This document shows positions 11,868 through 58,208 of a stretch of DNA of 64,000 nucleotides, in pieces. The position numbers and the translations under genes were made by a program. The DNA comes from Xylanibacter ruminicola (lineage in GTDB: Bacteria; Bacteroidota; Bacteroidia; Bacteroidales; Bacteroidaceae). The DNA is taken from assembly GCF_900142525.1 (NCBI RefSeq), contig NZ_FRBD01000004.1, positions 1-64,000 on the forward strand. Reading direction: 5' to 3'. Each line of letters starts with the position of its first letter. Position 1 is the stretch's first letter. Under the pieces are notes generated by a model that had not been told where the DNA came from, made no database searches, and saw only the letters and a list, made by a program, of their open reading frames with translations.

Positions 11868-11934
11868 CAAAGGTACATCAAAATTACGACATCGGATTTC
11901 CCAAATGTATCATTTACTTTATGAAACGTAACAC
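11868..11934 (-). promoter_or_regulatory. Xylan operator and promoter for the GH43-GH31-CE1-CE15-esterase operon
   Basis: Read on the minus strand: GTGTTAC, 14 bases, ATGATAC, 31 bases, then the -7 box TACCTTTG (11868-11875). The direct repeats occupy 11928-11934 and 11907-11913. The same repeat, 14-base gap and 31-base gap occur at four other promoters in the window. The start codon is 28 bases beyond the box. Binding by the AraC-type domain of the HTCS at 14670 is an inference. Confidence 0.75.
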
Positions 11935-11943
11935 ATACAAAAA

Positions 11944-11967
11944 GTCCGGGCCTTAACAAGCCCGGAC
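11944..11967 (-). terminator. Intrinsic terminator after GH115
   Basis: GTCCGGGC and GCCCGGAC form perfect 8-bp arms around an 8-base loop. On the minus strand the hairpin is followed by a T-run. It lies 25 bases past the GH115 stop and separates that gene from the downstream operon promoter. Confidence 0.85.
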
Positions 11968-11992
11968 ATCTAGAAGAACACGAAGTTCAAAA

Positions 11993-14488
11993 TTATTGCT
12001 TACCATAAACCTTTGGTGATTCCTTACCAAAAAGGAATTGCTTATGATACCCACCCAGATCAATGATAATCTTTTCAAAAACAATACCAGGATCTTGAGG
12101 ATGAATAGTCAAACTATGCACTCTCTGATTGATATCTAGCGGAAGTTCAACTACCTTCTCTACCACTCTACTTGCCACCGTTGGATAGTATTTTGTGTAG
12201 ATATTCTCAGGTTTCTCATTCAGATCTTTGTTGAAATTAACATCAACAGGAGAGTGACCGTCAATAGACAGATCGTAAACCAAACCACCTTTATCAAGGA
12301 AATCAAGCGTAGATTTTGTAATAACATGCACCTTTACGTTCTTTACATTTTCTGCTTCAAAACGATATACTAGATTTGCTTCTTCTGTTCTTGCCGTATA
12401 TGGCATTAGAGCAATACCACTAAGCGTACGTCCCATATATGGGATGACAGTCCACTTAGCTGTCGATGCATCCTGACGACTATATGTATGCTCAGCCTCA
12501 ATACTGATATAGCCATCACGTGGAGAGAACACCGGTCCATTTTCCGGTGTGGCAACAGCAATAAGCTTCGGGCACACATCTGCACGATAATTATCATTCC
12601 ATGTACGATAGCTGATATGTTTCTGTATCATCATACCATCCCATTTACCACCCGACATTACCTTATTATAATATAGGCAAAGCATAGAATCTCGCTTAAA
12701 AGCCTGATGACAACGCTCAGCCCAAATATTAGCATCAGGATCACCTACTGATGCCAGCCTCCGGTTCATGGCCTGAGCATAATACATCTCATAAATATTA
12801 CCCATTGCCTGTACTGGGAAAAGGATTATCTGACGATATGCATCCTGACACTCAGGTTTCAACTCCAAAAACAAGCGCAACGCACGAGCCTCTAAAGCAT
12901 GGTACTCACTTACCACCTGTTCAAACTCTTCACAAGTATACACATTGGCATCCAACATCTCGGAGGTTATGCGTCCATTATATTTGCATACCAGATTTAG
13001 AATAGAAGCTGCCTCATCGGCATTTTCCTCGCCAAAACTCTCTACACAGAACTCACGAGTATGATCTAAAAGATTTGACGTGTCATATTTTGACGGATTC
13101 CATGCCATATCCATAAATAACTGGATAGGATATTCCATCGGCTTAAGATCTCCTACGTTAAGAATCCAAAGCTTCTGAATACCACCATTATATGCCAGTT
13201 GTAACTGTTCCCACATATTTTGTATAGGGGTAACATTTATCCATTTAGAATTTCTTGGCGCCCCTACATAGTCTACATGGTAATACAATCCCCATCCGCC
13301 TTTGCGTTTCCTTTCCTCCGCGGTAGGTATTCTGCGCACATTACCCCAATTATCGTCACAAAGTAAGATTGTTACATCATCGGGCACACGCAGTCCTGCA
13401 TCGTAATAGTCCTGTACTTCTTTATACAGAGCCCATATCTGCGGTGTTTCTTTAGCTGGACGTTTAGTGACCTCTTTAATGATACGACGTTGGTTATTGA
13501 TAATATTCTCGAGTAATCGCGTATCAGTGCCTTTACCCATTGCTTCGTCACCATCACCACGCATACCTATCGTAACAATATCATCGGTATTCTTCATACG
13601 TTCAATACCTTCACGGAAGAAACGATCTAGGTTTTCTTTATTAACTGAATAATTCCATGCGCCCCATCCTTTACGGTTACGTGCATACTCCTGATGGTTT
13701 CGCGCCATAGGCTCGTGATGCGACGTTCCCATCATAACACCCATCTTATCGGCAGTCTTTAAATTCTCTGGGTCATCAGCATAGAAAGCCCAGCCCCACA
13801 TAGCTGGCCACAGATAGTTACCCTTCAATCTCAGTATCAGTTCAAAGACCTTTTCATAGAACTTATGACCACCATAATCGGTACCAAAAGTATTCTTTAC
13901 CCATGTTGTAAGGCATGGAGCTTCATCATTAAGGAACAAACCGCGATAACGTACTGCTGGCTCACCATCAGTAAACTCACCTTGTTTAATATATATATAG
14001 GTATGCTTCTCTATAGGAACGTCAGCCCAATAATACCAAGGAGAAACACCCATCTGCCTTGACAACTCATAAATACCATAAACCGTGCCACGTTTATCAC
14101 TACCAGCAATAACCAATTGATTACCGATTGTCTTAATGATATATTTCTCGGTTTTACCCTTCAAGTTACTCAATACTCCAGCTTTAACCCATTGATCTAT
14201 CTGCTTATTGACACCGACTGTGCCTATCAGGATTTCCATTCCTTCAGCAGTTTGTGAAGCAGGATGCCCTGTTACATTCTCTATGTCAGACATCAGATTA
14301 CTAGCAGCCAGAAGAACACAACTATGCTCATTCTGACTAACACCCACAGAAAAACGTTTCAACTGCCATACATCTGAAGAAGGTTGGAATGAAACAAACT
14401 GTTCAGCAGCCTTCACTTTCACACCAATCATGCAGACCGAGAACATTAAAAGCGCCAAGACTTTGGACCAAAAATGTTGTAGAATCAT
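11993..14488 (-). CDS. GH115 xylan alpha-1,2-glucuronidase
   Basis: An 831-residue secreted enzyme (signal peptide to about residue 27). The N-terminal domain ends at RGTVYGIYELSRQMGVSPWYYWADVP. The barrel contains NYLWPAMWGWAFYADDP, GTSHHEPMAR and TIGMRGDGDEAM, and the length and order are those of GH115. The C-terminal part after about residue 660 is beta-rich. GH115 enzymes release (4-O-methyl)glucuronic acid from internal and terminal xylose in glucuronoxylan. It is monocistronic: its own operator/promoter lies upstream and a terminator follows. It diverges from the HTCS gene, sharing a 181-base intergenic region. Confidence 0.93.
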   Translation of the reverse strand: MILQHFWSKVLALLMFSVCMIGVKVKAAEQFVSFQPSSDVWQLKRFSVGVSQNEHSCVLLAASNLMSDIENVTGHPASQTAEGMEILIGTVGVNKQIDQWVKAGVLSNLKGKTEKYIIKTIGNQLVIAGSDKRGTVYGIYELSRQMGVSPWYYWADVPIEKHTYIYIKQGEFTDGEPAVRYRGLFLNDEAPCLTTWVKNTFGTDYGGHKFYEKVFELILRLKGNYLWPAMWGWAFYADDPENLKTADKMGVMMGTSHHEPMARNHQEYARNRKGWGAWNYSVNKENLDRFFREGIERMKNTDDIVTIGMRGDGDEAMGKGTDTRLLENIINNQRRIIKEVTKRPAKETPQIWALYKEVQDYYDAGLRVPDDVTILLCDDNWGNVRRIPTAEERKRKGGWGLYYHVDYVGAPRNSKWINVTPIQNMWEQLQLAYNGGIQKLWILNVGDLKPMEYPIQLFMDMAWNPSKYDTSNLLDHTREFCVESFGEENADEAASILNLVCKYNGRITSEMLDANVYTCEEFEQVVSEYHALEARALRLFLELKPECQDAYRQIILFPVQAMGNIYEMYYAQAMNRRLASVGDPDANIWAERCHQAFKRDSMLCLYYNKVMSGGKWDGMMIQKHISYRTWNDNYRADVCPKLIAVATPENGPVFSPRDGYISIEAEHTYSRQDASTAKWTVIPYMGRTLSGIALMPYTARTEEANLVYRFEAENVKNVKVHVITKSTLDFLDKGGLVYDLSIDGHSPVDVNFNKDLNEKPENIYTKYYPTVASRVVEKVVELPLDINQRVHSLTIHPQDPGIVFEKIIIDLGGYHKQFLFGKESPKVYGKQ

Positions 14489-14522
14489 AATCTCTAATGT
14501 TACAAATCAAAATATAATGATG

Positions 14523-14589
14523 CAAAGATATGCCATTTTTAGCACTCTACCTATATTATTTGTATCAAAAAGTTTAATTTTTGTAACAT
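14523..14589 (-). promoter_or_regulatory. Xylan operator and promoter for GH115
   Basis: Minus strand: ATGTTAC (14583-14589), 14 bases, TTGATAC (14562-14568), 31 bases, -7 box TATCTTTG (14523-14530). The arrangement matches the other xylan operators exactly. The distal half-site overlaps the upstream part of the divergent HTCS promoter, so regulator bound here could also affect its own transcription. Confidence 0.75.
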
Positions 14590-14624
14590 TCCTTTGTTAC
14601 ATTTCAAAAAATGCATTATCTTTG
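14582..14624 (+). promoter_or_regulatory. HTCS promoter with overlapping inverted repeat
   Basis: A -33 element TTTG at 14593-14596 and a -7 box TATCTTTG at 14617-14624 are 20 bases apart, a near-consensus constitutive promoter. The -33 element lies inside an inverted repeat TGTAAC (14582-14587) / GTTACA (14596-14601) whose halves resemble the operator half-site, suggesting autoregulation (inference). Confidence 0.65.
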
Positions 14625-14669
14625 CAACAAATAAACAACTAACGCAACCATTTAATTACTAACAAAACA

Positions 14670-17600
14670 ATGCGAGTTAAGTTCATACTGACACTAGCTT
14701 CAATATTCATCTCAACGAATACTTTCGCCCAAAGGGGAAAGTTCTTCAGTACTGACAATCAACTATTGTCGAGTAGCTTTGTTACTCAGGTGTACCTTGA
14801 TAACGAAGGATTCATATGGGCAACCACACGTAATGGTATAAACCGTTATGATGGCTATCAGTTCCGTGTATTTAAGAAAGAAAACGAGCATGACAGTTCG
14901 CTGGCCAGCAATTATGTTAACAGCATGATGCAGGATCGAAACGGTCTGTTCTACTTTGGCATGTACGGTGCATTACAGACATGGGACGGCAACAAGTTCA
15001 ATAATGTAACCATGCTCGACAAAGACGGTAACATTGGGCACAGCTTCCCAAACTGTTTCCTTGAACGCTCAAACGGTGATGTCCTGGTAGGTACATCTGG
15101 TCTGGGTCTGCTTAAATTTAAGAACAAGAAGACTGCTTATCAGGAAAAAGGGCCTTTGGCTTCTATACATACTGTGAATAGTATGATTGAAGACAGAATG
15201 GGAGCCCTTTGGATTGTTACCGACAATATGGGCATTATATCCTACGATGGAAAAAAAGTAAAACGCCACCTTCTAGACAACCCTGACATAGTCTTCGCAT
15301 GTCTGTGCGAAGGAACAGATGGTATCATATATGCAGGAACCGCCAACAATGGTGTATATCGTATGCAGAATGGAACTTTTGTTCATATAGACGAAACAGG
15401 AAACAACTCTGTTTCAGCACTATTCTGCGATCACGACGGCATGATTGTCATTGGCTATGACGGTAAAGGAGTTGCCATCTACAATCCTAGAACCAAGGAG
15501 TTTGTCAATAATCCATTCTTCTCACTCGAAGTTGACCTATCAATCAGTAAGGTATACTCTATTACCGAGGACAAGAGTGGCAATCTGTGGTTAGGACTGC
15601 TTCAGAAAGGAATCTTCATGCAGCCCATCACATTCAAAGGTTTTAACTACATGGGCCACAAGTTAGGTGCTCGTAATATTATTGGTTCCGCATGCGTAGC
15701 AAGTGTTGTACTCGATAGCAAACAGCGTATTTGGGTGGGAACAGATAAAGACGGACTATATGTCTACGACTATAACACAAAAGCCGCAAAGCATCTGAAA
15801 GAACATTTCCCATCTGTTATCATGACACTTGCCGAAGATCTTAAAGGACGTATCTGGGTAGGCTCATATCGCGACGGCATGGGATGGATAGACCCAATAA
15901 GTTTCCAATATCATAAAATACCATTCCCTAAAGATCCTCACCTTATAGTCATGGATATTGCCATAGCAGGCGATGGCAGCCTTTGGCTTGCCACAATGAA
16001 ACATGGTCTGATTAGGATGGACGCGTCCGACGGGCATATCATCGCACAATATAAGATCAAACCTGGTGCAGAGAAAGACAGAAAGATAAACTGTATTACC
16101 AACGACTACATCTCGCAAGTTCATCTTTCGCCCGATGGGAAACGTGTATATGCCTCTACATCCATGGGACTTTGTTGTTTGGACATTGCAGAGAATAGTT
16201 GGATTAAGACATTCGGAAAGAACTGCCTTAACTATAGCACTCCTGTAAGAATAACCCGCGAGTACGACGGAAAACTCTGGTATGGCACGAACGAAGGATT
16301 ATATTGTTACGATCTTCAATCACACGAGACAAAGCAATATACCCGCGAAAACGGACTAGCCGACAATGGTATCGCCACTATTGAACGAGATCCACAGGGC
16401 AGACTATGGATTGGAACCGACCATGGATTAAGCTGTTTCACCCCAAAGAACAATATATGGCAAAACTACTTCGCTGATGACGGATTGCAGAGTAACGAGT
16501 TTAGCGATGGCGCCTCATTTATCACCTCAAGTGGCATGTTGGCCATGGGTGGAACAGCTGGTGTATCATGGTTCGATTCACAGCATATCTCTCCAAGTAA
16601 ATGGGAGGCAGAAGTAAAACTCACCTCATTCTCTATCAATGGTCAGCAAGTAAACAAAGCCACCCGATCGGGTAGCTATCTGATAACAGACACTGCCATT
16701 ATAGCCAGCGATCGCTTTGAACTTTGCTATAACGACAACACATTCTCTATCCAGTTCTCTACACTTACCTACGAGAACCCAGAACACATATCATATTTGT
16801 ACAGCATCAATGGCGAGCCGTTCAACCGTCTCCAGCCAGGAATGAACATACTTACGCTCTCTCACCTACCCCAAGGCACCTATCGATTTAGGGTAAAAGC
16901 AGAAAGAAACAACGTAGAAACCCCTATCAAAGAATTTACCGTTGTGATACACAGTCCCTGGTATCGTTCTGCATGGGCCTATTTCTTCTACGCTATTATT
17001 ATCGGATTGTTTGCATGGCAATACCTGGCCTATCGTCGTCATAAAGAACAAGACAAGCTCCGCCTTCAGGCTCATATTCACGCCGAAGAGATGGGCGAGG
17101 CAAAACTACGATTCTTTATGAACATGAGTCATGAGATTCGTACTCCTATGACTTTAATTCTCACACCATTGCTTTCACTTATCAAGAACGATACAGACCC
17201 ACACAGAAAAGGTGTTTACGAAACTATCAGACGTAATGCAGAGCGAATTCTCAGCCTTATCAACCAGATGATGGACCTCCGAAAGATTGATAAGGGACAG
17301 ATGCAGATGCGTATGCGCGAAACCAACCTCGTTGGATTTGCCAGAGATATTTACAATCTCTTTGACAATCAAGCCAAGTCAAAACAAATCAATTTCCTAT
17401 TCAATCACGATAGCGAGGAGATACCCGTATGGATTGACCGTCAGAACTTTGACAAGGTATTTATGAACGTCCTTTCGAATGCCTTCAAATACACCCCAAC
17501 AGGGGGCGAAATCGGTATCCGTCTCACTCACAACACCGAGTCAGCTACAATAGCGATATACGATAATGGAGAAGGAATTCCGGAAGATAAGATTAATAGA

Positions 17601-18668
17601 ATCTTCGATCGTTTCTATCAGACACCGACCTCAATCAACGACCGCTATGTAGGTACAGGCATCGGTCTAGACCTTACACGTTCACTTGTAGAGCTTCATC
17701 ATGGAACCATTACTGTACATAATCTTGAGAAGGGCTGCGAGTTCGTTATCACTATCCCAATGGGTAATAGTCATCTGAATCCAGACGAAATGCTTCTTGA
17801 CGACGACTCCACTGAAGCCATAACACCTGAGCTGATTTTAGAGGAAGAATCAGACTCAGAACTTATCACCCCAATGGCAGAGATGATGCCACAGAACCGC
17901 AGGACTACTTTGGTTATAGCCGAGGATGACGAAGAGATCCGTAACTATCTCGAGAGCGAACTCTCTAACGACTACGACGTTCATACCTGTACGAATGGTC
18001 GTGAGGCATTAGGCGAGATCATACGTACCAAGCCCGACTTGGTTTTAAGTGACATCATGATGCCCGAGATGGATGGTAACACACTGTGTACCAAACTCAA
18101 GACCAATCCGAACACAAATTCTATTCCAGTTGTTCTGCTTACCGCCAAGAGTCGCGACGAGGATAAGCTCGAAGGACTGGAAACAGGCGCCGACGCATAC
18201 ATCGTTAAACCATTTAACATGGATATCCTGCGCCGCACAATCATCAACCTTATCAATAAGCACCGACTGTTGCGACTCAAATACGAGCGCAATGACAATC
18301 TGGAAGAGCAGGTTGACGAAATTCGCCTTAAGTCGCCCGATGAGAAGTTGCTGGAGCGCATCATGGAGTGCATCAACAAGAATTTGAACAATTCCGACCT
18401 GAGTGTCGATATGATCGCCGACACTGTTGGTATTAGCCGAGTACACCTACACCGCAAGATGAAAGATCTTACAGGTCAGACACCTCACGACTTCATCCGT
18501 AACATTCGCTTGAAGAAAGCAGCACAACTACTGGCCAACCAGGGCATGAACGTTACCGAAGTGATGTACGCCTGCGGATTTGCGAACTCAGCTTCATTCT
18601 CTACTGTATTCAAAAAATTCTACGGAATGTCGCCACGCGACTATATGCGAGAACACGAGGAAAGATAA
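14670..18668 (+). CDS. Hybrid two-component sensor-regulator (HTCS) for xylan
   Basis: A 1332-residue single-chain regulator. Order: signal peptide (about 1-20), two seven-bladed sensor propellers built from repeats of the type DGLWIGT/GNLWLG (about 30-690), Y_Y_Y domain (about 700-765), one membrane helix (about 768-790), histidine kinase with His821 in MNMSHEIRTP and N/G boxes (LSNAFKYTP, DNGEGIP, GTGIGL), receiver with Asp1128 in SDIMMPEMDG, and a C-terminal AraC-type DNA-binding domain (about 1235-1330). The periplasmic domain is expected to bind xylo-oligosaccharides. Its position among xylan genes and the shared operator make it the likely activator, equivalent to XynR of Prevotella bryantii. 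A PotD-like gene follows 24 bases later. Confidence 0.93.
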   Translation: MRVKFILTLASIFISTNTFAQRGKFFSTDNQLLSSSFVTQVYLDNEGFIWATTRNGINRYDGYQFRVFKKENEHDSSLASNYVNSMMQDRNGLFYFGMYGALQTWDGNKFNNVTMLDKDGNIGHSFPNCFLERSNGDVLVGTSGLGLLKFKNKKTAYQEKGPLASIHTVNSMIEDRMGALWIVTDNMGIISYDGKKVKRHLLDNPDIVFACLCEGTDGIIYAGTANNGVYRMQNGTFVHIDETGNNSVSALFCDHDGMIVIGYDGKGVAIYNPRTKEFVNNPFFSLEVDLSISKVYSITEDKSGNLWLGLLQKGIFMQPITFKGFNYMGHKLGARNIIGSACVASVVLDSKQRIWVGTDKDGLYVYDYNTKAAKHLKEHFPSVIMTLAEDLKGRIWVGSYRDGMGWIDPISFQYHKIPFPKDPHLIVMDIAIAGDGSLWLATMKHGLIRMDASDGHIIAQYKIKPGAEKDRKINCITNDYISQVHLSPDGKRVYASTSMGLCCLDIAENSWIKTFGKNCLNYSTPVRITREYDGKLWYGTNEGLYCYDLQSHETKQYTRENGLADNGIATIERDPQGRLWIGTDHGLSCFTPKNNIWQNYFADDGLQSNEFSDGASFITSSGMLAMGGTAGVSWFDSQHISPSKWEAEVKLTSFSINGQQVNKATRSGSYLITDTAIIASDRFELCYNDNTFSIQFSTLTYENPEHISYLYSINGEPFNRLQPGMNILTLSHLPQGTYRFRVKAERNNVETPIKEFTVVIHSPWYRSAWAYFFYAIIIGLFAWQYLAYRRHKEQDKLRLQAHIHAEEMGEAKLRFFMNMSHEIRTPMTLILTPLLSLIKNDTDPHRKGVYETIRRNAERILSLINQMMDLRKIDKGQMQMRMRETNLVGFARDIYNLFDNQAKSKQINFLFNHDSEEIPVWIDRQNFDKVFMNVLSNAFKYTPTGGEIGIRLTHNTESATIAIYDNGEGIPEDKINRIFDRFYQTPTSINDRYVGTGIGLDLTRSLVELHHGTITVHNLEKGCEFVITIPMGNSHLNPDEMLLDDDSTEAITPELILEEESDSELITPMAEMMPQNRRTTLVIAEDDEEIRNYLESELSNDYDVHTCTNGREALGEIIRTKPDLVLSDIMMPEMDGNTLCTKLKTNPNTNSIPVVLLTAKSRDEDKLEGLETGADAYIVKPFNMDILRRTIINLINKHRLLRLKYERNDNLEEQVDEIRLKSPDEKLLERIMECINKNLNNSDLSVDMIADTVGISRVHLHRKMKDLTGQTPHDFIRNIRLKKAAQLLANQGMNVTEVMYACGFANSASFSTVFKKFYGMSPRDYMREHEER

Positions 18669-18692
18669 TAATGTTAATAAAGGAAGGAACGT

Positions 18693-19979
18693 ATGAAACG
18701 ATTGGCTACCATTCTGATTGCCATATTCTGCACACTTGGCACACAAGCGCAATATGACCGTCAAAAAATTTTGAAAGTCTATAACTGGGATGAGTATATT
18801 GGAAAAGGTGTTATTGAGAAATTCGAGAAATGGTATAAGGAAGTAACTGGTAATACCATAAAAGTCGAGTACGTAACCTATGACTACCCAGAAGACTGTT
18901 TCGCACAGATGCAAAGCGGACAGATAGACGCTGATGTATTCTGTCCGCCCGAATACCTGTTCGAACGTATGATGAAAAATGGGTTTCTTCATCCTATCGA
19001 CACCAGTTTTGTCGAAAAAGGTATTCCGAATTGGATGAAAGGAACTTCGCCATTTATCGACAATCTTCTTCAACTCATTGGCGAAACACAAGGCATTAGA
19101 GCAAAGGACTATACCGTTGGATATCTTTGGGGAAATACTGGCGTACTTATCAATACCAAATACGTTAAGCCCGAAGAGGTTTATAGTTGGGAGTTTCTGT
19201 TTGATTCCAAGTTCCGCGGCAAGGTGATTATGAAGGATTCGTTTAGCGATCTGTATAATCTGCTCATCAATTACGCCTTCTACGAAGAAATTAAGGCAGG
19301 CGTTACTAACCGTAACCTATTAGCGACATATCTTACAAACCGTAATATTGCCATTGTAGAAGATCTGCTGGAAAAAGCGCGCCCACAGATGAAGAGCTTT
19401 GATGTGGATGATGACAAACGACTAATGGCCGATGGAAGCAATTGGATGAGTGTGACCTGGAACGGCGATGCCAAATGGGCCATCGACGAGGCTAGCAAAG
19501 ATGTAAACCTACAATATATTGTACCCAAGGAAGGCAGTGATTGCTGGATGGACTGCTGGGTTATCCCCGCATGTACAAAAAACGCTGAAGCAGCCAGTTA
19601 TTGGATAAACTTCATTTGCCGTCCAGATATAGCCCTTCTCTGTATGGACGAAACAGGTTACAGCTCTGCCATTGCCACGCCCGACATTTTGAGAACAGTA
19701 ACCAATGACAAGATCAAGGAGACTATCGATCTCAGCTATTTCTTTGGTCCTAAAGCTACTGCTGTTCATGTCGACAGTGTCATGTACCCCGACATAAATA
19801 CAATAAATCGATGCAGTTTCCTTCGCGATAGCGGCGATCGCCAGGAGGTTATTCGTGAAATCTGGGATAAGATAAAGAATAAATCTGTCATCAACTATTG
19901 GCATATTGCCATTGCAGGATGCATTCTCTTGGCAATCATCCTCACATGTATTATCATCTTGCGCAGATTACGTAAATAA
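18693..19979 (+). CDS. PotD-like periplasmic binding protein with a C-terminal membrane helix
   Basis: A 428-residue protein with a signal peptide (cleavage near TQAQ) and a spermidine/putrescine-type binding fold: LKVYNWDEYIGKGVIEKFEKW at the start, then DADVFCPPEYLFERM, VGYLWGNTGVLINTKYV and SWEFLFDSKFRGKV. Family members end at about 340-350 residues. This one continues to a hydrophobic helix (about 403-424, WHIAIAGCILLAIILTCIIIL) and a basic RRLRK tail, placing it as a periplasmic domain anchored in the inner membrane. No ABC permease or ATPase gene is adjacent. It starts 24 bases after the HTCS stop and is probably co-transcribed, so a signalling or accessory role rather than uptake is possible (inference). 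Confidence 0.8.
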   Translation: MKRLATILIAIFCTLGTQAQYDRQKILKVYNWDEYIGKGVIEKFEKWYKEVTGNTIKVEYVTYDYPEDCFAQMQSGQIDADVFCPPEYLFERMMKNGFLHPIDTSFVEKGIPNWMKGTSPFIDNLLQLIGETQGIRAKDYTVGYLWGNTGVLINTKYVKPEEVYSWEFLFDSKFRGKVIMKDSFSDLYNLLINYAFYEEIKAGVTNRNLLATYLTNRNIAIVEDLLEKARPQMKSFDVDDDKRLMADGSNWMSVTWNGDAKWAIDEASKDVNLQYIVPKEGSDCWMDCWVIPACTKNAEAASYWINFICRPDIALLCMDETGYSSAIATPDILRTVTNDKIKETIDLSYFFGPKATAVHVDSVMYPDINTINRCSFLRDSGDRQEVIREIWDKIKNKSVINYWHIAIAGCILLAIILTCIIILRRLRK

Positions 19980-19980
19980 A

Positions 19981-20016
19981 AAAATGACCACCACTAAAGG
20001 GTGATGGTCATTTTCT
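19981..20016. terminator. Bidirectional terminator between the PotD-like gene and GH3
   Basis: ATGACCA pairs with TGGTCAT in a hairpin of about 28 bases with one internal mismatch, flanked by an A-run on the left and a T-run on the right. It serves the two convergent genes. The last codons of GH3 lie within it. Confidence 0.65.
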
Positions 20017-22561
20017 TCAGGTCTTTATCCATCGAACTGTTTCCGTAGAGTATCTCATACTTTCCGGGCTTTGTTCGCATGGTATTTGTTTCCGAATCCC
20101 AGAATTCAAATGCTTTTGCATCCAGTTTCAGAGTAGCCTTAACCGTCTCACCAGCCTTTACATCCACACGCTGAAAAGCACGGAGCGACTTCAACGGTCC
20201 CTCAGCATCGCCCAAATTGCGAATATACACCTGAACAGTCTCTGTACCATTGCGTTTTCCTGTATTAGTTACGGGAATGGTAACAGACTCTTTACCCTGC
20301 AACGTAGCCTCACCAATTACGAAGTTAGTATAGCTCAGGCCGTAACCAAAAGCGAAGAGAGGATCATTGAAATAACGGTATGTACGTCCTTTCATTGAGT
20401 AATCCTCATAATCAGGCAACTGAGAATCGTTTTTATAAAATGTTACAGGCAGTTTACCGCTTGGATTACAATCACCAAAAAGGACCTCAGCTACGGCTGT
20501 ACCGCCTTCCTGACCAGCATACCAAGCCTGAACAATAGCTTCGCAAGTTTCGGTTTCTGGAGTCAAAGCGATAGCAGAACCAGAACAGTTTACGAATATA
20601 ACCTGCTTACCAGCCTCTTTCAGAGCCTTCAGGAAATCTCGCTGAACCTTTGGCAGTTCTATGCTAGTACGGTCGCCACCCTTGAATCCTTCTATCTGCA
20701 CCGGCATCTCCTCACCTTCTAAGGCTGCAGAAATACCACCACAGAAGATAACCTTGTCAATGCCCTTCAGCTTGTCAATCATCTGCTGATAGTCAATAGG
20801 CAACTCCTTGGCAATGTTAATCTTCAGGTTTGCATTATAGGTATGGATATGCGAGAAACGAACCTCTATGTTATAACTCTTGCCCTTCTCTGCCTGTATA
20901 GCAACACGGTTAGGAGTTGTACGCCAGATATGGTGCATAAACTTGCGTTCACCATTGATATAGAGTTCAAAATGCCCACAACCATCCACGTTTACAACAT
21001 ATTCGCCTGCCTCTTTTGGCGTAAACACTGTCTCATACTTTGCCGAGAAATCTTCAAGCTGTACCCCAGGAGCGAAATTGTGCATACCTGCAGTAGTAAC
21101 AGCAAGAGGAGTAGTATAATACTGTGTAGTAACAGGTTTACCTTCCATCTTTCGGTTATTCCAGAAAGTTCCCTTCAAGCCCTTCTTACCACCAAAGCTA
21201 CACTGCGAAGCCATCAAACAATCCATAACCTTGTCGTAGGTCAGGTCACATCCAGCATGATAGTATAGTTTCTTCTGCTTTGCCTTGATACCATCCAGAA
21301 TTGTTACCGTGTGGTTTGGCATACCATTATAGTTTCCCCACATCATGGGAGCATTGTCGGCATTTGGTCCTATAACAGCAATTTTCTCTGCATTCTTTTT
21401 CAATGGCAGAATATTATTCTTGTTTTGTAGCAAGACAATAGTCTGGCGAGCCATATTTAGAGCTGTTTGTGCATGCTCTTTGCAAGACATCTTTGAATAT
21501 GGTATCTTTGCCCATTCTACGAGCGAAGGATCATCCATTTCACCCAAGTCAAAACGACCTTCCAACAAGCGTATCACATGCTTGTCAACCTCAGCCTCAG
21601 TAATAAGCCCGCGCTTCACTGCCTCTGGAATACTACGATAAGCATAGCCATAGCCACATTCCACATCAGTACCGGCAATAGTAGCCTTAGCTGTAGCGTG
21701 AACAGGATCAGATGAGGACTTGTGCGACTCATAGAAATCACTTACAGCACCACAGTCGCTCACTACAAGATATTTAAATCCCCATTCATCACGCAAGATT
21801 GTCTGAAGAAGTCGCTGCGAGCCGCAACATGGGTCATCGTCCAGTCTTTGATAAGCACACATCACCTCACGAACTTTACTCTCCTCCACCAGTTTCTTGA
21901 ATGCTGGCATATAGGTTTCCCAGAAGTCGCGTGGTGACACATTTGTGAGATTAGCACTATGACGAGTGTACTCTGGACCACTATGTACTGCATAATGCTT
22001 GGCACAAGCCCACAATTTACGATACTTTGCAGACTCAGGACCTTGCAAACCACGAACCACCTGGTCGCCCATAACACTTGTCAGATATGGATCCTCACCA
22101 TATGTCTCTTGTCCTCTACCCCAACGTGGATCACGGAAAATGTTCACATTTGGAGTCCACACACTCAGGCTATGGAATTTCTCATCCTCGCCCGACCCGC
22201 GCTGCATACGTTCATTATACTGTGCACGAAACTCTGTCGAGGCAATATCAAACACATTGTATAATAATGAAGGATTAAACGATGCAGCCATAGCTACCGG
22301 CTCTGGAAATACCGTTACATGATCCATATTGGCGGCTCCATGCAGAGCCTCACTCCACCAGAAAAACTTCTTGATACCAAGACGTGGAATAGCCGGACTC
22401 TCGTCAAGCATCAGCATGGCTTTCTCTTCCAATGTCAGTCTTCCACAGAGATCTACGGCTCTCTCCTTAGCCGATAGATTAGGATTTTGATAAGGATACG
22501 TCTGTGCCGATGCCGATAGACATGCACAGAATGCAATTGTTAGGAATAGTTGATACTTCAT
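19994..22561 (-). CDS. GH3 beta-xylosidase with PA14 insert
   Basis: An 855-residue secreted enzyme (signal peptide to about residue 19). The N-terminal barrel has WWSEALHG, the metal/substrate region DPRWGRGQETYGEDP, KHYAVHSGPE and nucleophile Asp269 in VVSDCGAVSDF. The second sheet domain contains an inserted PA14 module (about 455-600, FTPKEAGEYVVNVDG, FELYINGERKFMHH), and a fibronectin III-like domain ends the protein. This layout matches the xylan-linked GH3 enzymes of Prevotella that cut xylo-oligosaccharides to xylose. It starts 35 bases after the GH95 stop and is probably in the same transcript. Confidence 0.9.
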   Translation of the reverse strand: MKYQLFLTIAFCACLSASAQTYPYQNPNLSAKERAVDLCGRLTLEEKAMLMLDESPAIPRLGIKKFFWWSEALHGAANMDHVTVFPEPVAMAASFNPSLLYNVFDIASTEFRAQYNERMQRGSGEDEKFHSLSVWTPNVNIFRDPRWGRGQETYGEDPYLTSVMGDQVVRGLQGPESAKYRKLWACAKHYAVHSGPEYTRHSANLTNVSPRDFWETYMPAFKKLVEESKVREVMCAYQRLDDDPCCGSQRLLQTILRDEWGFKYLVVSDCGAVSDFYESHKSSSDPVHATAKATIAGTDVECGYGYAYRSIPEAVKRGLITEAEVDKHVIRLLEGRFDLGEMDDPSLVEWAKIPYSKMSCKEHAQTALNMARQTIVLLQNKNNILPLKKNAEKIAVIGPNADNAPMMWGNYNGMPNHTVTILDGIKAKQKKLYYHAGCDLTYDKVMDCLMASQCSFGGKKGLKGTFWNNRKMEGKPVTTQYYTTPLAVTTAGMHNFAPGVQLEDFSAKYETVFTPKEAGEYVVNVDGCGHFELYINGERKFMHHIWRTTPNRVAIQAEKGKSYNIEVRFSHIHTYNANLKINIAKELPIDYQQMIDKLKGIDKVIFCGGISAALEGEEMPVQIEGFKGGDRTSIELPKVQRDFLKALKEAGKQVIFVNCSGSAIALTPETETCEAIVQAWYAGQEGGTAVAEVLFGDCNPSGKLPVTFYKNDSQLPDYEDYSMKGRTYRYFNDPLFAFGYGLSYTNFVIGEATLQGKESVTIPVTNTGKRNGTETVQVYIRNLGDAEGPLKSLRAFQRVDVKAGETVKATLKLDAKAFEFWDSETNTMRTKPGKYEILYGNSSMDKDLKKMTITL

Positions 22562-22596
22562 GAAATCTTAATATTAAATTTTTAATGTTTTAATCT

Positions 22597-25089
22597 TTAA
22601 AGCCTTGTCACCTTATAAGTTCTGCCAGGAATTGTTTCCACATCGTACTCATAGACTTTTCTGACTGGCAACAGCTTAAACTCACTCAACTCTGCCGACT
22701 TCAATGGTTCTCGAATAACAGCAGATTTCAGCAACTCGTTTTCACACTCTCCTATAGCAGCAGAAAGGCCTTCGCCTTTCAGAGGCACATACGAACGTAG
22801 ACGCAACTTTCCACCTATCTTCGAGAAAATGTCTGCCTCAGACAATTCTCCTTTGTTCCATTTCATATCAACAACAAAGGCACCTCTTGCTCGCAGACCT
22901 TTAACCTCGCCCTCCGACCACGCATCAGGCAGAGCTGGCAACAGGTGTACAGCTCCATCATGACTCTGCAATAACATCTCACATATACCAGCCGAACAGC
23001 CAAAGTTGCCGTCAATCTGGAAAGGCGGATGAGCATCGAACAGGTTAGGATAAGTTCCACCACGCGGTCCCCACTCTGTCGTATATGGTATCGGGGTTAG
23101 CATATTACTAATGATACGGAAGGCATGATTGCCATCAAGCATACGAGCCCAGAAATTTATCTTCCATCCCAGACTCCATCCTGTTGCCATATCACCACGC
23201 TGATTCAAAGTGTTAGCAGCAGCGGTAAACAGTTCGGGATGAGAGTATGGAGAAATCTGGTTTGACGGATACAATCCGTACAGATGCGATATATGCCGAT
23301 GCTCATCCTTGGGGTCGTCACCATCTATCAGCCACTCCTGCAATTGTCCGTATCTACCTATCTGCATAGGGGGCAACTGGGCTATGGCATTACTCAACAT
23401 CGTGGTATAAACGACATTGTCATAACCCAATATCTGATGAGCCTTAAGAGTACTTGTCAGCACATCAAACACGATTTGGTTATCCATGGTCGAACCTGCC
23501 GTTACAGTAGTATTCTTGCCTACAGGTCCATGTTCGGGCGACACTGTAGGTACGGTAACAAGCCATCCGGCAGCCTGTTTCACCTCTCCATTCTTAGGAT
23601 ACTCCTGCATATACGACAACAGGAAATCAGAAGCCCCCTTCAGTATAGGATAACATCGCTTCAGGAAGTCCTTATCGCCTGTATACAGATAGTGTTGCCA
23701 CAGATGCGTTGTAAGCCAAGCGCCACCTGTTGGGAACATACCCCATGTGGTACCGTCAACAGGACCGGCAATACGCCAAAGGTCTGTATTATGGTGAGCC
23801 ACCCAACCTGGACAGTCATACATCTGTCGTGCAGTCTTTTTTCCAGTCTCACTCAAATCGCGTATCATCATAAACAACGGTTCTTGGGTTTCTGCCAGAT
23901 TACCCACCAGTGCAGGCCAATAGTTCATCTCTGCATTGATATTGATAGTATATTTCGAATCCCATGGAGCATCTTTTTTATTGTTCCATACGCCTTGCAG
24001 ATTTGCAGGCTGACCACCTGGCTGAGACGATGAAATGAGCAGATATCTACCATACTGCATCATCAACGAGATAAAGTCAAGATCGGTGCCATCAAACTTT
24101 GCCAATCGCTCATCGGTAGGCAGGCTAGACTTACTAGCCTGATTAACATTACTAGCCCCACTAGATAAATTGAGCGAAACACGATTGTATTGCTCCTGAT
24201 ATTTCTGCAGATGTCGCTTCAATAGTGTCTTGTAACTCTTACCCTGCAGCGATGCCATAGTATAGCTGTTCTTAAGCTCCGGATTACCGCTTATATCCTT
24301 ATAGTTCACATAGTTAGTGGCAGCAGTAATGAGTATTGTAGCTGCAGTAGCATTCTTAACGTTCATGCTACCTGCATCATCTTGTACAGCTCCGTCGGCT
24401 ACGACTTTCACACGAACCTCAGCTTTGAGTTTGCCCGGAATTCCCTCGTGTTCCACATTATTAATATAATAGGCCATTTCGTGCTTATCCAGCAGCTCTC
24501 CGTGTTGTGCCTGTTCATTCTGCAGGTACGACACAGTAAAATTTAGCATCTTTTTCTTGCTGGCTGTGATTTGCACAACTATGGCGTTATCAGCCTGTGA
24601 TGCAAACACAATTCGCTCGTATTTCACGCCATCAATTTCAAAACTGGTTGTGTTAAGTGCATCAGCCAGACTCAGTTCACGGCGATAATTAGTAGGTTTC
24701 GAATGACTCTGATAGTCGAATTTCATGTTCAAATCACCCAATGGCATATACTTTTGGCCATGCGGGCCCTTAAAGAAATATCGGTCTATCAGACCTTGCG
24801 CCTCTTGTTCCTTTCCTTCAAATATCAGTTTGCGCACTTCACTGATAACGCTTTTTGCACTAGGATTATTGTTATCGTGGGGCGAACCGCTCCAGAATGT
24901 TTCCTCGTTCAACTGTATTTGCTCGTTGTTTGTACCGCCATATACCATCGCTCCTAGGTGCGAGTTTCCTATAGGTAGTGCTTCTAACCAATGGTTTGCT
25001 GGTTGATGATACCACAGTTTATGTTGTTGTGCGTTAACAGCGATTACTGTGCACGCACAAATCAGCATGGTTGTAATGATTCGTTTCAT
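22597..25089 (-). CDS. GH95 alpha-L-fucosidase/alpha-L-galactosidase
   Basis: I use the ATG at 25089, which opens a signal peptide ([21 protein letters not shown]). An in-frame ATG 16 codons upstream lies between this start and the promoter. The 830-residue protein has the GH95 layout: N-terminal [19 protein letters not shown], then WNGSP-type [11 protein letters not shown], barrel motifs [16 protein letters not shown] and [16 protein letters not shown], and [19 protein letters not shown]95 covers alpha-1,2-L-fucosidases and alpha-L-galactosidases. A Bacteroides ovatus xylan-locus member is an alpha-L-galactosidase acting on corn glucuronoarabinoxylan, so that activity is favoured here by context. 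Confidence 0.88.
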
Positions 25090-25114
25090 AAATGCTATTG
25101 GTTTAATTTTGCGG

Positions 25115-25122
25115 CAAAGGTA
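25115..25122 (-). promoter_or_regulatory. -7 box (TACCTTTG) for GH95-GH3
   Basis: On the minus strand TACCTTTG lies 25 bases upstream of the GH95 ATG. A TTTG is found 22 bases further upstream, slightly beyond usual -33 spacing. The paired xylan operator is absent in front of this box; the sequence there is A/T-rich and follows directly on a terminator. Confidence 0.6.
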
Positions 25123-25149
25123 CAAAAAAAATTTCAAAACAATACAAAT

Positions 25150-25196
25150 AAAAAAGAAAAACCCTGGGACAAGAAACGCTTTTCTATGTCCCAGGG
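25150..25196 (-). terminator. Strong intrinsic terminator upstream of GH95
   Basis: Arms CCCTGGGACA (25162-25171) and TGTCCCAGGG (25187-25196) are perfectly complementary over 10 bp. The 15-base loop can pair further (AGAAA/TTTCT). On the minus strand it is followed by TTTTTCTTTTTT. No coding region feeds into it from the nearest upstream promoter, only about 60 bases of leader. Confidence 0.85.
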
Positions 25197-25258
25197 AAGG
25201 AAAAACTACTAACTACTAATATAACTAAAACAATTTTAACCGATTCTTTATCTTATCT
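25160..25258 (-). ncRNA. Candidate xylan-controlled small RNA or attenuated leader
   Basis: A promoter with the complete xylan operator (box 25264-25271) would start a transcript near 25258, and a strong terminator stops it near 25150. The roughly 100-nt product has no ATG-initiated frame. Beyond the terminator lies GH95, which has no operator of its own, so the segment could be a free small RNA or a leader whose terminator is bypassed under some condition. Neither function nor transcription is proven. Confidence 0.4.
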
Positions 25259-25263: not shown

Positions 25264-25330
25264 CAAAGTTAGTGCATTTTTTCGAAAGTGGCTTACTCTT
25301 ATGTTACATTTACTTTTTAATTTGTTTCAA
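25264..25330 (-). promoter_or_regulatory. Xylan operator and promoter between GH10-CE1 and GH95
   Basis: Minus strand: TTGAAAC (25324-25330), 14 bases, ATGTAAC (25303-25309), 31 bases, -7 box TAACTTTG (25264-25271). Spacing is identical to the other copies. The downstream unit is a short non-coding stretch ending in a terminator. Confidence 0.7.
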
Positions 25331-25365: not shown

Positions 25366-27750
<2,385 letters not shown>

Positions 27751-45399: not shown

Positions 45400-45425
45400 A
45401 TTAATTAAGGCATATAGAGATTGAT

Positions 45426-47569
<2,144 letters not shown>

Positions 47570-47600
47570 CTTGACTATATATGCACTTTTTTATCCGGTT

Positions 47601-47633
47601 TTTGAGTTTTTTTAAAATACTTTTGTATCTTTG
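47601..47633 (+). promoter_or_regulatory. Promoter of the TPR/PP2C gene
   Basis: -33 TTTG at 47601-47604 and -7 TATCTTTG at 47626-47633 with 21 bases between. The ATG at 47666 follows 32 bases later. No xylan operator on this strand. Confidence 0.65.
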
Positions 47634-47665
47634 CATCCGGAAACATCAATGACTTGAAACGATAT

Positions 47666-49975
47666 ATGAAACAGACAAAGCTTTGGATTCTGCTGGTAGT
47701 ATTGACCAGTGTACTGATAGTAGCATGTAACGATGATGAAAAGAAATCCCGGATCAGCGAGGTTGACAAGCTGATTGAGGCATCGCAGAAAAACAGAAAT
47801 TACAACGAGCTGATGAAGGTTGTAGACAGTCTGGAGACGAATGGGATTATCTCTTCTACCAAAGCCTGCTATTGGCGAGGCTATGCCTGCGACAAGATGA
47901 AACGCCAGAGACTGGCAGAATATTATTGGAAAGCCTCTATCGATGCCGCCAAAGAGTCGACCGACGGCGATGAGATGACATATTATGCCAAGTCAGCTAG
48001 CCGATTGGCCAACATGCTATCGGTAAGAGGCGACTACGAGGAAGGCCTGAACATAGCCATCCCTGTTGCCAGCAAACTGGAATCGCTTGACTGCGACAGC
48101 ACCAGCGACTATCTGAACATACTTATATATATAGGTTGCTGCCAGGAAGGCATGGGCACAGCCGATGGTAATGCCGACGGATTTACCAAGGCTTACCAGC
48201 GACACATGGAAAACATCGAGACCTATCATAACGATGTGGTTTATAAGGATGGTATCACAGGTATTATCAACATTGCCTATGATTACATTTGGGCCAAGAA
48301 ATGGCAAGAGGCTCTGGTATGGACCACCCGCTTCGGACAGATATTGAGCGAATACGAGCAGCGCCCCGATGCCGATGCCGAGTACATTGACCGCCAGTTG
48401 GCACGTCACGACATCTATCAGGCCATTGCACTTGAAGGACTTCACAAATCAGACGAAGCAGCCAAGGCCTACGACAAATTCCTGACTACCCAGTTCAGCA
48501 AGACGCCAAAGGGACGCATTGATGCCAACGACTATCTGACTGCCGCCCATCGATGGGACGAGGCCTCAGAGAATTACAACAGTCTTGACGCCATGATGGG
48601 TGAGAATGTGAAGAACTACTCGATTGAGAATATCGAGAACCTGGTTCTGAAGAAGTATCGCACCAACGTGCTGGCAGGCCGTCGTGATTCAGCCATGAAG
48701 ATAGCAATGGACATCAGCAACTCACTAGGCCAGGCTATTGCAAAATCCAGAAAGATTGAGAAAGAGGAACAGGCCGTCATCGTGAAGAATGTAGAGAAGA
48801 CAACGGAGTTACAAGCCAAGAAAAACAGGAAATATCAGATTCTGATTGTAGCAGGCTTCGTTTTCCTGATTCTCTGCATGACAGCCTTTGTCGTTATACG
48901 CCATCGTCTAGCCAAACGTATGGAGGCCGAATTCGAAGATCTGAAATACGACTACGACCGTCTGGAGGCCGACACCATTGTGAAAGAGCGTGAGGCTTCA
49001 GAACTTCGCATCGCGCAGAACATACAAAAGGTAATCGCCCCAAGTCAACTGCCACAGCATAAGTTCTTCGACATCTGGAGCTCAACAACCGTTGGATTGA
49101 TGGAAGGCGGCGGAATCCTGGATTACGCCATGCGCAACGGAAAGCTGTTCTTCTGTGTAGGCGAAGCAACCGTCGAGGGTGTTAAAGCTTCACTCCTTAC
49201 CACCGTTGTCAAGGCACAGTTCCGTACAGCGATCGCTTTCGAGGATAAGCCAGACCATATTGTGTCATCCATCAACAATGCCATAGCCAAGGAAGGCGAG
49301 AAAGGTCAGGCAGTAAGACTGTTTGTAGGTATTCTCGACATCAGCACCGGCGCCCTACATTTCTGTAATGCCAACCATGATGCACCATTGTTGGTAAGCA
49401 ACGAGCTGCATCACCTGCCGGTAGAGCAAAATATAGCTATAGGCGAAAAGCCAAACTTTAAGTACGAAGCTCAGGAAATACTGATGACACCAGGAACCAT
49501 GATCTTCCTGAACACCGACGGACTGACAAAGGTAAAGAATGCCGAACACAGAGTCTTCAACGAGAAACGCATGCTGGGTTGCGCCCTGCAAGCCATGAAA
49601 CTGGATCCACGCCCCAAACCGTTTATCGAGAATATGCTTGATGCCGTAAACCGTTTCGCAGGCGACTTTGAGCAGAGAGACGACATCGCATTGCTGACTA
49701 TCAGGTACAAGGGCGGCAGAAAGATGCTCCAAAATAATAGTGAAACAGAACAAGAGCCAGAGGTTGAGCCAGTAGCACAGCCAACAGTAGAGCCCGCACA
49801 GGCACCGGAGTCAGAGCCAGAGCCAGTGATGACTGAAGCTCCCAGGGTTATTGAAGAACCTGAGGTATTTATCGAGCCTGAAGTTATTGAGGAACCCGAA
49901 GTTATTGATGAGCCCGAGATCATCAAAGAACCCGAGATTATCATCGAAGATGCGGAGGCTACTGAAATTTCGTAG
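47666..49975 (+). CDS. TPR membrane protein with degenerate SpoIIE/PP2C phosphatase domain
   Basis: Start set at the ATG at 47666 (MKQTKLW); an earlier in-frame TTG is less likely. The roughly 769-residue protein has a lipobox-like signal (VLIVACND), a TPR region (about 25-370), a membrane helix (about 391-411), a coiled coil and a C-terminal SpoIIE-like PP2C domain (about 455-690). That domain keeps LNTDGLTKV and QRDDIALLTI, but the usual GGD-YD and GDVxGHG metal motifs read GGGILDY and VGEATVEG, so two metal-binding aspartates appear lost. A tail of about 70 residues repeats EPEVI/DEPEII. Its 3' end overlaps the convergent PD40 gene by 17 bases. Confidence 0.75.
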   Translation: MKQTKLWILLVVLTSVLIVACNDDEKKSRISEVDKLIEASQKNRNYNELMKVVDSLETNGIISSTKACYWRGYACDKMKRQRLAEYYWKASIDAAKESTDGDEMTYYAKSASRLANMLSVRGDYEEGLNIAIPVASKLESLDCDSTSDYLNILIYIGCCQEGMGTADGNADGFTKAYQRHMENIETYHNDVVYKDGITGIINIAYDYIWAKKWQEALVWTTRFGQILSEYEQRPDADAEYIDRQLARHDIYQAIALEGLHKSDEAAKAYDKFLTTQFSKTPKGRIDANDYLTAAHRWDEASENYNSLDAMMGENVKNYSIENIENLVLKKYRTNVLAGRRDSAMKIAMDISNSLGQAIAKSRKIEKEEQAVIVKNVEKTTELQAKKNRKYQILIVAGFVFLILCMTAFVVIRHRLAKRMEAEFEDLKYDYDRLEADTIVKEREASELRIAQNIQKVIAPSQLPQHKFFDIWSSTTVGLMEGGGILDYAMRNGKLFFCVGEATVEGVKASLLTTVVKAQFRTAIAFEDKPDHIVSSINNAIAKEGEKGQAVRLFVGILDISTGALHFCNANHDAPLLVSNELHHLPVEQNIAIGEKPNFKYEAQEILMTPGTMIFLNTDGLTKVKNAEHRVFNEKRMLGCALQAMKLDPRPKPFIENMLDAVNRFAGDFEQRDDIALLTIRYKGGRKMLQNNSETEQEPEVEPVAQPTVEPAQAPESEPEPVMTEAPRVIEEPEVFIEPEVIEEPEVIDEPEIIKEPEIIIEDAEATEIS

Positions 49976-52527: not shown

Positions 52528-52549
52528 AATTAGTTAGAAAAAGATGCCG

Positions 52550-52557
52550 CAAAGATA
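52550..52557 (-). promoter_or_regulatory. -7 box (TATCTTTG) for the DUF6057/PD40 pair
   Basis: A TAnnTTTG match 22 bases upstream of the ATG at 52527, located directly after the terminator of the SusC/SusD operon. Confidence 0.55.
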
Positions 52558-52582
52558 CAACATAATTATAATATTACCAAAA

Positions 52583-52627
52583 AAAATAATCAAAAAAAGA
52601 TGCCGCGTCATCGCGACGCAGCATCTT
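52583..52627 (-). terminator. Intrinsic terminator after SusC/SusD (second pair)
   Basis: AAGATGCCGCGTC (52597-52609) and GACGCAGCATCTT (52615-52627) pair over 13 positions with one mismatch around a 5-base loop. On the minus strand a T-rich stretch follows. It lies about 60 bases past the SusD stop. Confidence 0.85.
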
Positions 52628-52687
52628 CTAAATACCAAAACAATGTGTCTAATACTAACTACTATAACTAACTTAAAATATAGTCAA

Positions 52688-54625: not shown

Positions 54626-54675
54626 ATTTGTATTCTTATTTATATTTTACTATTTCATTAATGACCGTTAAACCA

Positions 54676-57987: not shown

Positions 57988-58092
57988 AATTAATTTAATT
58001 AGTTAGATAATTGTAATATATTTGGCTGAAATTTATCATATTTAAGCGTTAAGTTTCCACAAACTTGCGCGTTATTGGTTCGAAATCGGTTG

Positions 58093-58100
58093 CAAATATA
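58093..58100 (-). promoter_or_regulatory. Possible -7 box (TATATTTG) for SusC
   Basis: Fits TAnnTTTG, 105 bases upstream of the SusC ATG, which would give a long leader. It lies 71 bases from the operator, not 31. A weaker candidate TACGTTAC (58132-58139) sits at 32 bases. Which is used cannot be told by eye. Confidence 0.4.
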
Positions 58101-58171
58101 TTATAATTTTAACTTAAATACTTTATTTTTTGTAACGTAGAGTTTACCAAATCACCAAAAAGCCTTAAAAT

Positions 58172-58208
58172 GTTACATATCGCAAACTCCTGGTTACATT
58201 TCGTAAAC
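58172..58208 (-). promoter_or_regulatory. Paired xylan-type operator upstream of SusC
   Basis: Minus strand: ATGTAAC (58193-58199), 14 bases, ATGTAAC (58172-58178), two identical half-sites with the same 21-base period as the xylan operators. The identity extends to a 16-base repeat with three mismatches (GTTACATATCGCAAAC and GTTACATTTCGTAAAC on the plus strand). Confidence 0.65.

Follow-up and report, generated by a model that had tools for sequence, protein, structure and literature searches.

In a 64,000-nucleotide stretch of Xylanibacter ruminicola DNA (assembly GCF_900142525.1, contig NZ_FRBD01000004.1, positions 1 to 64,000; hereafter the window), five promoters carry the same tandem direct repeat at an invariant distance from a TAnnTTTG -7 box. 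This element is very probably the operator of HTCS1, an AraC-type hybrid two-component system (HTCS) regulator encoded in the same window (14670-18668, plus strand), through which separate xylan-gene promoters would be co-ordinated. The sites, their spacing and conservation, their linkage to HTCS1 and the classes of their target genes were directly observed.

Operators With Fixed Spacing in the Window

An original prediction, made from the letters of the window, had placed operators at 11868-11934, 14523-14589, 25264-25330, 27602-27668, and 47503-47569, each consisting of two DTGNWAC half-sites separated by 14 bp and followed after 31 bp by the box. All five were present at exactly these coordinates with exact 14/31 spacing, and all of them lie on the minus strand. 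The pair DTGNWAC-N14-DTGNWAC had seven matches in the window versus 0.32 expected from 100 dinucleotide shuffles, and the full pattern (the pair followed by N31-TANNTTTG) had five versus none expected. When pairs were counted over all gaps from 0 to 112, gap 14 was the sole outlier (7 pairs; mean 0.67, next highest 3), so that 14 was no arbitrary choice. Together with the recurrence of the 14/31 spacing in independent genomes described below, these counts bear out the argument that chance does not easily explain the fixed spacing. A seventh pair, not included in the original prediction, was found at 826-853. It was rejected as an operator because it has no box at 31 bp and lies inside a 141-amino-acid open reading frame (ORF; 495-920, minus strand), being probably coding sequence.

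Spacing and Repeat Unit in Independent Loci

The spacing was then examined in 40 loci of up to 20 kb each (750,568 bp) surrounding relatives of HTCS1 in further genomes of the genus, none of which had been used for the pattern. An HTCS1 sensor match (E at most 1e-120; identities 34-65%) was present in 87 other genomes, of which 40 were used in descending order of score; one genome (G006), whose sensor match contained an in-frame stop and which had no match to R1, a sequence profile made from the five window sites, was skipped. Gap 14 occurred in 40 pairs, versus an average of 4.4 and a maximum of 15 for the other gaps between 0 and 100. The box TAnnTTTG was located at exactly 31 bp in 20 of these 40 pairs, at 32 bp in two, and at 29 and 30 bp in one each, and the commonest distances from half-site to box were 52 (40 times) and 31 (36 times), the next reaching 6. 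A scan that assumed no half-site and relied on the self-similarity of the DNA upstream of 535 boxes peaked at lag 21 (31 boxes; map mean 2.2, standard deviation 2.2). The excess of both gap and box distance in independent loci indicates, therefore, that both numbers of the predicted rule are real.

The half-site of that rule required an extension: DTGNWAC does match as predicted, but it covers only part of a longer repeat unit. In a gapless alignment of 53 sites (the five from the window and 48 operators from other genomes, three of the latter coming from the R1-found loci L282 and L283), several columns outside the pattern were conserved: AAA at positions 20-22 in 84, 98, and 96% of the sites and AAAG at positions 41-44 in 73, 67, 60, and 66%, as well as A at 13, G at 23 (giving AAA(G) at 20-23), and T at 24. 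A distance of 21 bp separates the AAAG blocks, just as it separates the two TGWWAC blocks. The repeat unit is thus TGWWACA-N6-AAAG, present twice, every 21 bp, so that two like half-sites about 21 bp apart form a direct repeat.

The -7 box, which the pattern itself demands as TAnnTTTG, is followed by C in 98% and by A in 92% of the 53 sites. The second AAAG occupies the -33 slot, with 20 bp between it and the box. A TTTG -33 box was found 17-23 bp before the -7 box in only 7 of 50 target operators, but in all 17 of the HTCS1 promoters with a box 25-28 bp away from a divergent operator. This distribution suggests that the target promoters are activator-dependent and that the promoter of HTCS1 itself is basal.

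Occurrence in the Genome

Random occurrence of the pattern through the genome had been named as an observation that would count against the regulon. Using R1 on the 3.96-Mb genome, we recovered the five sites, then C13:47674 on contig 13 (E 5e-5) and C30:209173 (E 1e-3), and then matches at 0.019 and worse; only two more matches at E about 0.001 or better were thus found, both of them at carbohydrate genes. The E-values of R1, and of a second profile made from the 53 sites (R2), are rough. C30:209173, which is outside the training set of R2, scored E 3e-8 with it and precedes genes for an MFS_2 sugar transporter and a GH43 protein; judged by its sequence, this operon is the sixth member of the predicted regulon. 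C13:47674 (R2 E 4e-5) lies between SusC and the gene for another regulator, HTCS3, and was re-assigned from HTCS1 to HTCS3 because HTCS3-linked SusC promoters elsewhere look alike. R2 matches from E 4e-4 on were mostly partial, to the promoter half.

The original prediction also included a repeat before the SusC gene of the window. This pair (ATGTAAC-N14-ATGTAAC; 58172-58199, minus strand) does exist, but 71 bp instead of 31 bp separate it from the TATATTTG box at 58093-58100, which puts it outside the standard register; SusC is therefore only a probable, partial member of the regulon. The SusC promoter proper (58091-58152, minus strand), downstream of this extra pair, has a half-site ACGTTAC exactly 31 bp before TATATTTG; its AAAG occupies the -33 slot, and its distal half is weak (R2 E 1.4e-4).

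These data also bear on the notion that the pattern is a general AT-rich promoter feature of Bacteroidales, without a specific regulator. The -7 box and the CA that follows it are indeed general, and the weak-scoring profile matches include many generic promoters. However, exact-spacing paired repeats are rare in the 3.96 Mb, and neither distant Bacteroidota loci nor 29 other loci with helix-turn-helix (HTH) genes in the window genome showed a clear peak at the 14/31 geometry. Together with the genus survey below, this makes such a general feature highly improbable. A geometry general to HTCSs across Bacteroidota was likewise unsupported: at the 570 boxes of distant Bacteroidota HTCS loci the excess at lag 21 was weak (9 at best; other lags up to 8), and a non-Bacteroidota control also reached lag-21 values of 7.

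HTCS1 as the Proposed Regulator

HTCS1 contains all the modules of an HTCS in one protein: a Reg_prop/Y_Y_Y sensor (PF07494, and PF07495 below its cut-off), HisKA (PF00512), HATPase (PF02518), a receiver (PF00072), and an AraC-type HTH domain (PF12833). Its closest named relative, 92% identical over residues 1-1047, is from the uncultured Prevotella bin RUG126. The HTCS at 14670 had been named as the likely regulator, and two lines of evidence support this choice. The first one is co-occurrence. In a survey of 200 genomes of the genus, in which an HTCS1 sensor was called at E at most 1e-120 (identity 34-100%, which does not imply strict orthology) and an operator as an R1 match at E at most 1e-3, the sensor was detected in 88 genomes and the operator in 127. 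The operator was present in 86 of the 88 genomes with the sensor versus 41 of the 112 without it (Fisher p 7e-22, phylogeny ignored). The second one is position, as 29 of the 45 operators of the 40 loci were located within 700 bp upstream of HTCS1, a region that makes up 4% of the bases.

An operator was found upstream of 26 of the 40 HTCS1 genes; in 25 it is divergent, pointing away from HTCS1, and in one it points towards it. In the window, the -7 box of HTCS1 (14617-14624, plus strand) lies on the opposite strand 27 bp beyond the pair of operator 2 (14562-14589). All 25 divergent regions were examined, and this box was 25-28 bp beyond the pair in 17 of them and not in the other 8. Since operator and HTCS1 promoter often keep much the same distance, the shared operator may allow autoregulation of HTCS1. 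A gene for a solute-binding-protein-like product (18693-19979) directly follows HTCS1 on the same strand.

The window encodes a second HTCS (HTCS2, 41253-45257), which lies on the same strand downstream of the SASA-CE1 gene preceded by operator 5 and could for this reason be considered as the regulator. Its sensor, however, was detected in only 2 of the 200 genus genomes (its own included), versus 127 with the operator, and its HTH domain shares only 28 of 79 residues with that of HTCS1. HTCS2 was thus excluded as a general regulator on account of the rarity of its sensor, and a role as the regulator of these sites is very improbable.

The paralogue HTCS3 deserves more weight, either as the main reader of the operators or as a partner of HTCS1 in a joint xylan regulon. 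Its HTH domain is the nearest to that of HTCS1 (44 of 79 residues identical, the next having 37) among the 12 domains that were compared out of the genome's 32 other HTH_18 matches. When the genus genomes were divided by HTCS class, the operator was present in 33 of 34 with only HTCS1, in 25 of 33 with only HTCS3, in 53 of 54 with both, and in just 16 of 79 with neither, the last figure being also at odds with a general promoter feature. Thus, R1 matches are frequent where HTCS3 occurs without HTCS1, but nearly constant where HTCS1 occurs without HTCS3. SusC promoters beside HTCS3 relatives show the 14/31 layout with the half-sites TGARAC/YGAAAC, as seen in a set that was picked for this layout (21 rows from 18 loci, those reaching at least 7 of 12 among 59 boxes in 39 loci); several of these loci had been chosen because R1 matched there, and the contig-13 site of the window genome is not among the rows. 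The operators preceding the leader RNA described below are also mixed in consensus, with TTGAAAC distal and ATGTAAC proximal. Against HTCS3, the operators cluster at the HTCS1 gene, and the half-sites of sites 1, 2, 4, and 5 are TGNTAC or TGTAAC, not TGARAC. We consider HTCS3 an unlikely main or joint regulator. Since HTCS3-linked promoters combine the 14/31 layout with other half-sites, the geometry may be common to the paralogues and the half-site sequence may tell HTCS1 from HTCS3.

Several observations weigh against the assignment of the operators to HTCS1. In addition to the 41 of 112 genus genomes with an R1 match and no HTCS1 sensor, and to the presence and absence counts ignoring phylogeny, a similar site lies next to HTCS3 on contig 13, and the HTH domain of HTCS3 resembles that of HTCS1. 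In the 40 loci, half of the pairs (20/40) have no box at 31 bp, and six loci have no operator at up to one mismatch, although one of the six (L227) is cut off at the HTCS1 start. A DPPIV-type peptidase was found as one of the independent targets, and 5 of the 16 downstream ORFs analyzed with Pfam gave no match. The association also weakens at the family level: in 171 genomes, R2 matches at E at most 1e-4 were found in 53, belonging to 13 of 30 genera, and they occurred in 11 of 21 genomes with HTCS1 versus 42 of 150 without it (p 0.04). In view of this weak link, other HTCSs, with related DNA-binding domains and other sensors, would have to read similar sites in the family.

Genes Preceded by the Operators

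Operator 1 (11868-11934, minus strand; R2 E 8.7e-11, in the training set) precedes a GH43-CBM6 gene (ORF 9128-11959, minus strand; probable start 11839), closely followed by genes for GH31, a CE1-type esterase, a CE15-like glucuronoyl esterase, and BD-FAE. Operator 2 (14523-14589, minus strand) precedes GH115 (11993-14488, minus strand), in the divergent region common to GH115 and HTCS1. Operator 3 (25264-25330, minus strand; R2 E 1.9e-13, in the training set) lies before the leader RNA and GH95 (ORF 22597-25137, minus strand; probable start 25089, after a leader about 170 nt long); GH3 (19994-22561, minus strand) begins 35 bp after GH95 and is probably in the same operon. Operator 4 (27602-27668, minus strand) precedes the GH10-CE1 xylanase-esterase gene (ORF 25366-27687, minus strand; probable start 27561), and operator 5 (47503-47569, minus strand) a SASA-CE1 esterase gene (45426-47471, minus strand). 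This gene set fits glucuronoarabinoxylan breakdown. Operators therefore stand before the genes of one glycan pathway and are linked to an HTCS gene. Strong terminator-like hairpins were found directly upstream of operators 1 and 4 (11944-11967 and 27672-27697, minus strand), and they perhaps insulate these operators from preceding transcription. SpoIIE-type phosphatase genes lie beside two operator-linked loci, one divergent from site 5 (47654-49975) and the other near the 209-kb site (L032:13778-15841).

In the 40 independent loci, the ORF downstream of 24 of the 45 operators matched the compared protein set, some at only 24-33% identity. Matches at 60% identity or more to proteins of the window were to GH115 (three) and to SASA-CE1, GH3, CE1-CBM48, GH95, GH10-CE1, and GH43-CBM6 (one each). 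Below 60%, there were eight to SusC (25-33%), one to HTCS1 (59%), and one to GH3 (44%), and at 24-32% two to SASA-CE1, one to GH10-CE1, and two to other GH43 proteins. Pfam was run on 16 ORFs, corresponding to 18 of the other 21 operators (L215, L218, and L223 were left out). Apart from the peptidase and the ORFs with no match mentioned above, it identified three GH43 proteins with a beta-xylosidase C-domain, three GH98, and one each of arabinofuranosidase, GH5, SusC, and SASA-CE1, the ORF for the last one (L228) starting 961 bp from its operator.

A Conserved Leader RNA After Operator 3

The DNA from operator 3 to GH95 includes a segment that hardly differs between genomes, and a strong hairpin with a T-run comes after it; a simple terminator scan did not list this hairpin. 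The predicted leader transcript runs from about 25257 to 25149. A 27-mer from the leader, with up to three mismatches allowed, had a single copy in each of 12 genomes out of the 200 of the genus, and its reversed control had none; one of the 12, in L295, was set aside as a likely chance match. In the alignment of the remaining 11 copies, 55 columns are invariant and the stem is variable: the 5' part retains ATTGTTTTAGTTA and TATTAGTAGTTAGTAGTTTTTCCT unchanged in all of them, the hairpin tip is GAAARGCGTTTC, and 7 of the 14 stem pairs have changed on both sides with pairing kept in at least one sequence, the alignment not having been fitted to the structure. A covariance model of the leader (R3), which excluded the operator, matched the window at 25149-25236 (minus strand), covering the near-invariant 5' part and the covarying terminator-like hairpin. 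R3 found the leader in 33 of 398 genus genomes, with one match each, and in 1 of 30 genera in a draw of 251 family genomes. No Rfam family matched at its gathering score: there were none in the window, and the four matches over the leader region were all far below gathering scores. The conserved leader is apparently an undescribed RNA.

Thirty-one leader loci were read, and the core was recognizable in all but one of them (L325); the regions of genomes G022, G138, and G215 have no recognizable core, and that of G389 has one. In 30 of the 30 readable loci the leader is preceded by the operator at a gap of exactly 31 (29-33 having been allowed, with up to one half-site mismatch), and the core begins 31-48 nt after the box. 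The gene next to the leader is GH95 in 20 of the 30 loci and GH3 in seven; in two further ones it is a GH31-like gene or a gene without a match in the compared proteins, each followed by GH95 and GH3. The possibility that the leader is a small ORF was discarded, as an in-frame ATG occurs in only 2 of the 31 loci and 24 lack any in-frame start codon. In G389 (L345, G389:C37:15000-22000), the reading frame of GH3 extends across the leader region, which supplies its N-terminus.

Two functions can be proposed from the sequence comparisons. We give about even chances to a cis-acting attenuator of the GH95/GH3 operon, a reading that fits 29 of the 30 leader positions. Somewhat less probable, but still to be taken seriously, is a small, HTCS-induced RNA (about 100 nt) that would act in trans and tune the xylan programme, beyond GH95/GH3 attenuation. 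The latter proposal is based on two observations. The first one is a stand-alone copy in genome G020 (L339, G020:C47:64000-75000; core at 4114 of the reversed locus), located after GH10-CE1, where a convergent gene abuts the leader hairpin and no same-strand ORF is listed for about 3 kb. The second one is the presence of a second -7 box within 400 nt after the core in 11 of the 30 loci, among which the window has one at 25115-25122 (minus strand), past the leader hairpin and ahead of the GH95 start (25089). No convincing RNA target was detected in the DNA examined, since the best predicted duplexes outside the own locus reached -27.0 versus -27.4 to -30.5 for three shuffled controls.

Proposed Mechanism

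The binding, phosphorylation, and signal steps that follow, as well as the replacement of the -33 contact, are what we infer from these arrangements. The periplasmic sensor of HTCS1 would detect a xylan breakdown product, and phosphorylation of the fused receiver would release the DNA-binding domain. Two HTCS1 monomers would then occupy one face of the DNA in head-to-tail arrangement, at a distance of 21 bp. Each of them would read two successive major grooves, TGWWAC and then AAAG about 12 bp further on, through its two HTH motifs; a monomer of the AraC type, with its two HTH motifs, would require two contact blocks at this distance in each unit. The bound activator would take the place of the -33 contact, the promoter-proximal AAAG being 20 bp from the -7 box, at the usual -33 position, which would explain the fixed 31 bp to TAnnTTTG. 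In this way, HTCS1 would co-ordinate the separate promoters of GH10-CE1, the GH43-CBM6 operon, GH115, GH95-GH3, and SASA-CE1, plus the distant operon of the MFS transporter and GH43.

The receiver of HTCS1 carries, by eye, NSIP at the presumed place of the S/CHIP motif. The conserved S/CHIP motif is described as mediating inhibition between receiver and DNA-binding domain in HTCSs and as present in most Bacteroides HTCSs, as far as the cited text goes (mBio 2024, PMC11253607). NSIP might weaken the inhibition of DNA binding without phosphorylation in HTCS1.

Significance and Comparison With Known Systems

The operator provides a compact, searchable rule, a 21-bp tandem unit with 31 bp to the -7 box, that ties a sensor to its scattered targets in rumen-type Prevotella, in which the regulated genes are split among promoters and neighbourhood alone cannot group them. 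The register suggests a mode of activation for HTCSs, in which the regulator, kept at one helical register, replaces the -33 contact. It was also the operator that led to the conserved leader RNA, through which xylan use in the genus would gain an additional, RNA-based layer. The open-licence literature, as judged by titles or beginnings of abstracts, yielded no account of a fixed distance from an HTCS operator to the -7 box, nor of an RNA of the leader type in Prevotella.

Among regulators of rumen Prevotella, XynR of Prevotella bryantii is reportedly a multidomain regulator of xylanase genes, work attributed to Miyazaki et al. in 2003. A tandem arrangement is also found in the I1-I2 sites of Escherichia coli AraC, where half-sites in direct repeat, with a period of about 21 bp, lie beside the promoter and each monomer makes two HTH contacts. 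Unlike HTCS1, E. coli AraC is a soluble sugar-binding regulator acting at a sigma-70 promoter, with another half-site and another register.

The closest parallels are with Bacteroides. In Bacteroides thetaiotaomicron, the operators predicted for 16 of 36 HTCSs are direct repeats, whose tandem sites lie on average 21 bp apart and would be bound by dimers on one face of the DNA at a distance of two turns; motifs are shared there by HTCS paralogues whose DNA-binding domains are similar, and unlinked genes form regulons (Ravcheev et al., 2013, PMC3878776). The earlier proposal that the 21-bp period of the window sites fits two helical turns and dimer binding by an HTCS is consistent with those operators, with which the present ones share the 21-bp direct repeats, the unlinked targets and perhaps features common to paralogues. 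They differ in the half-site, here TGWWACA-N6-AAAG, and as far as the cited passages go the Bacteroides set includes no xylan HTCS motif; in the main text of that study "tanntttg" and "transcription start" occur 0 times and no register to a -7 box was seen. In Bacteroides xylanisolvens XB1A, the HTCS BXY_29350 controls xylan genes in two unlinked loci, as established with a mutant (Despres et al., 2016, PMC4855328). As with HTCS1, a single HTCS is associated with unlinked xylan genes, but here an operator sequence is proposed, whereas the evidence for BXY_29350 in the cited text is a mutant and includes no operator sequence. The tandem direct-repeat HTCS operator is thus already known as a kind, to which the present one adds a member with a precise register to the promoter.

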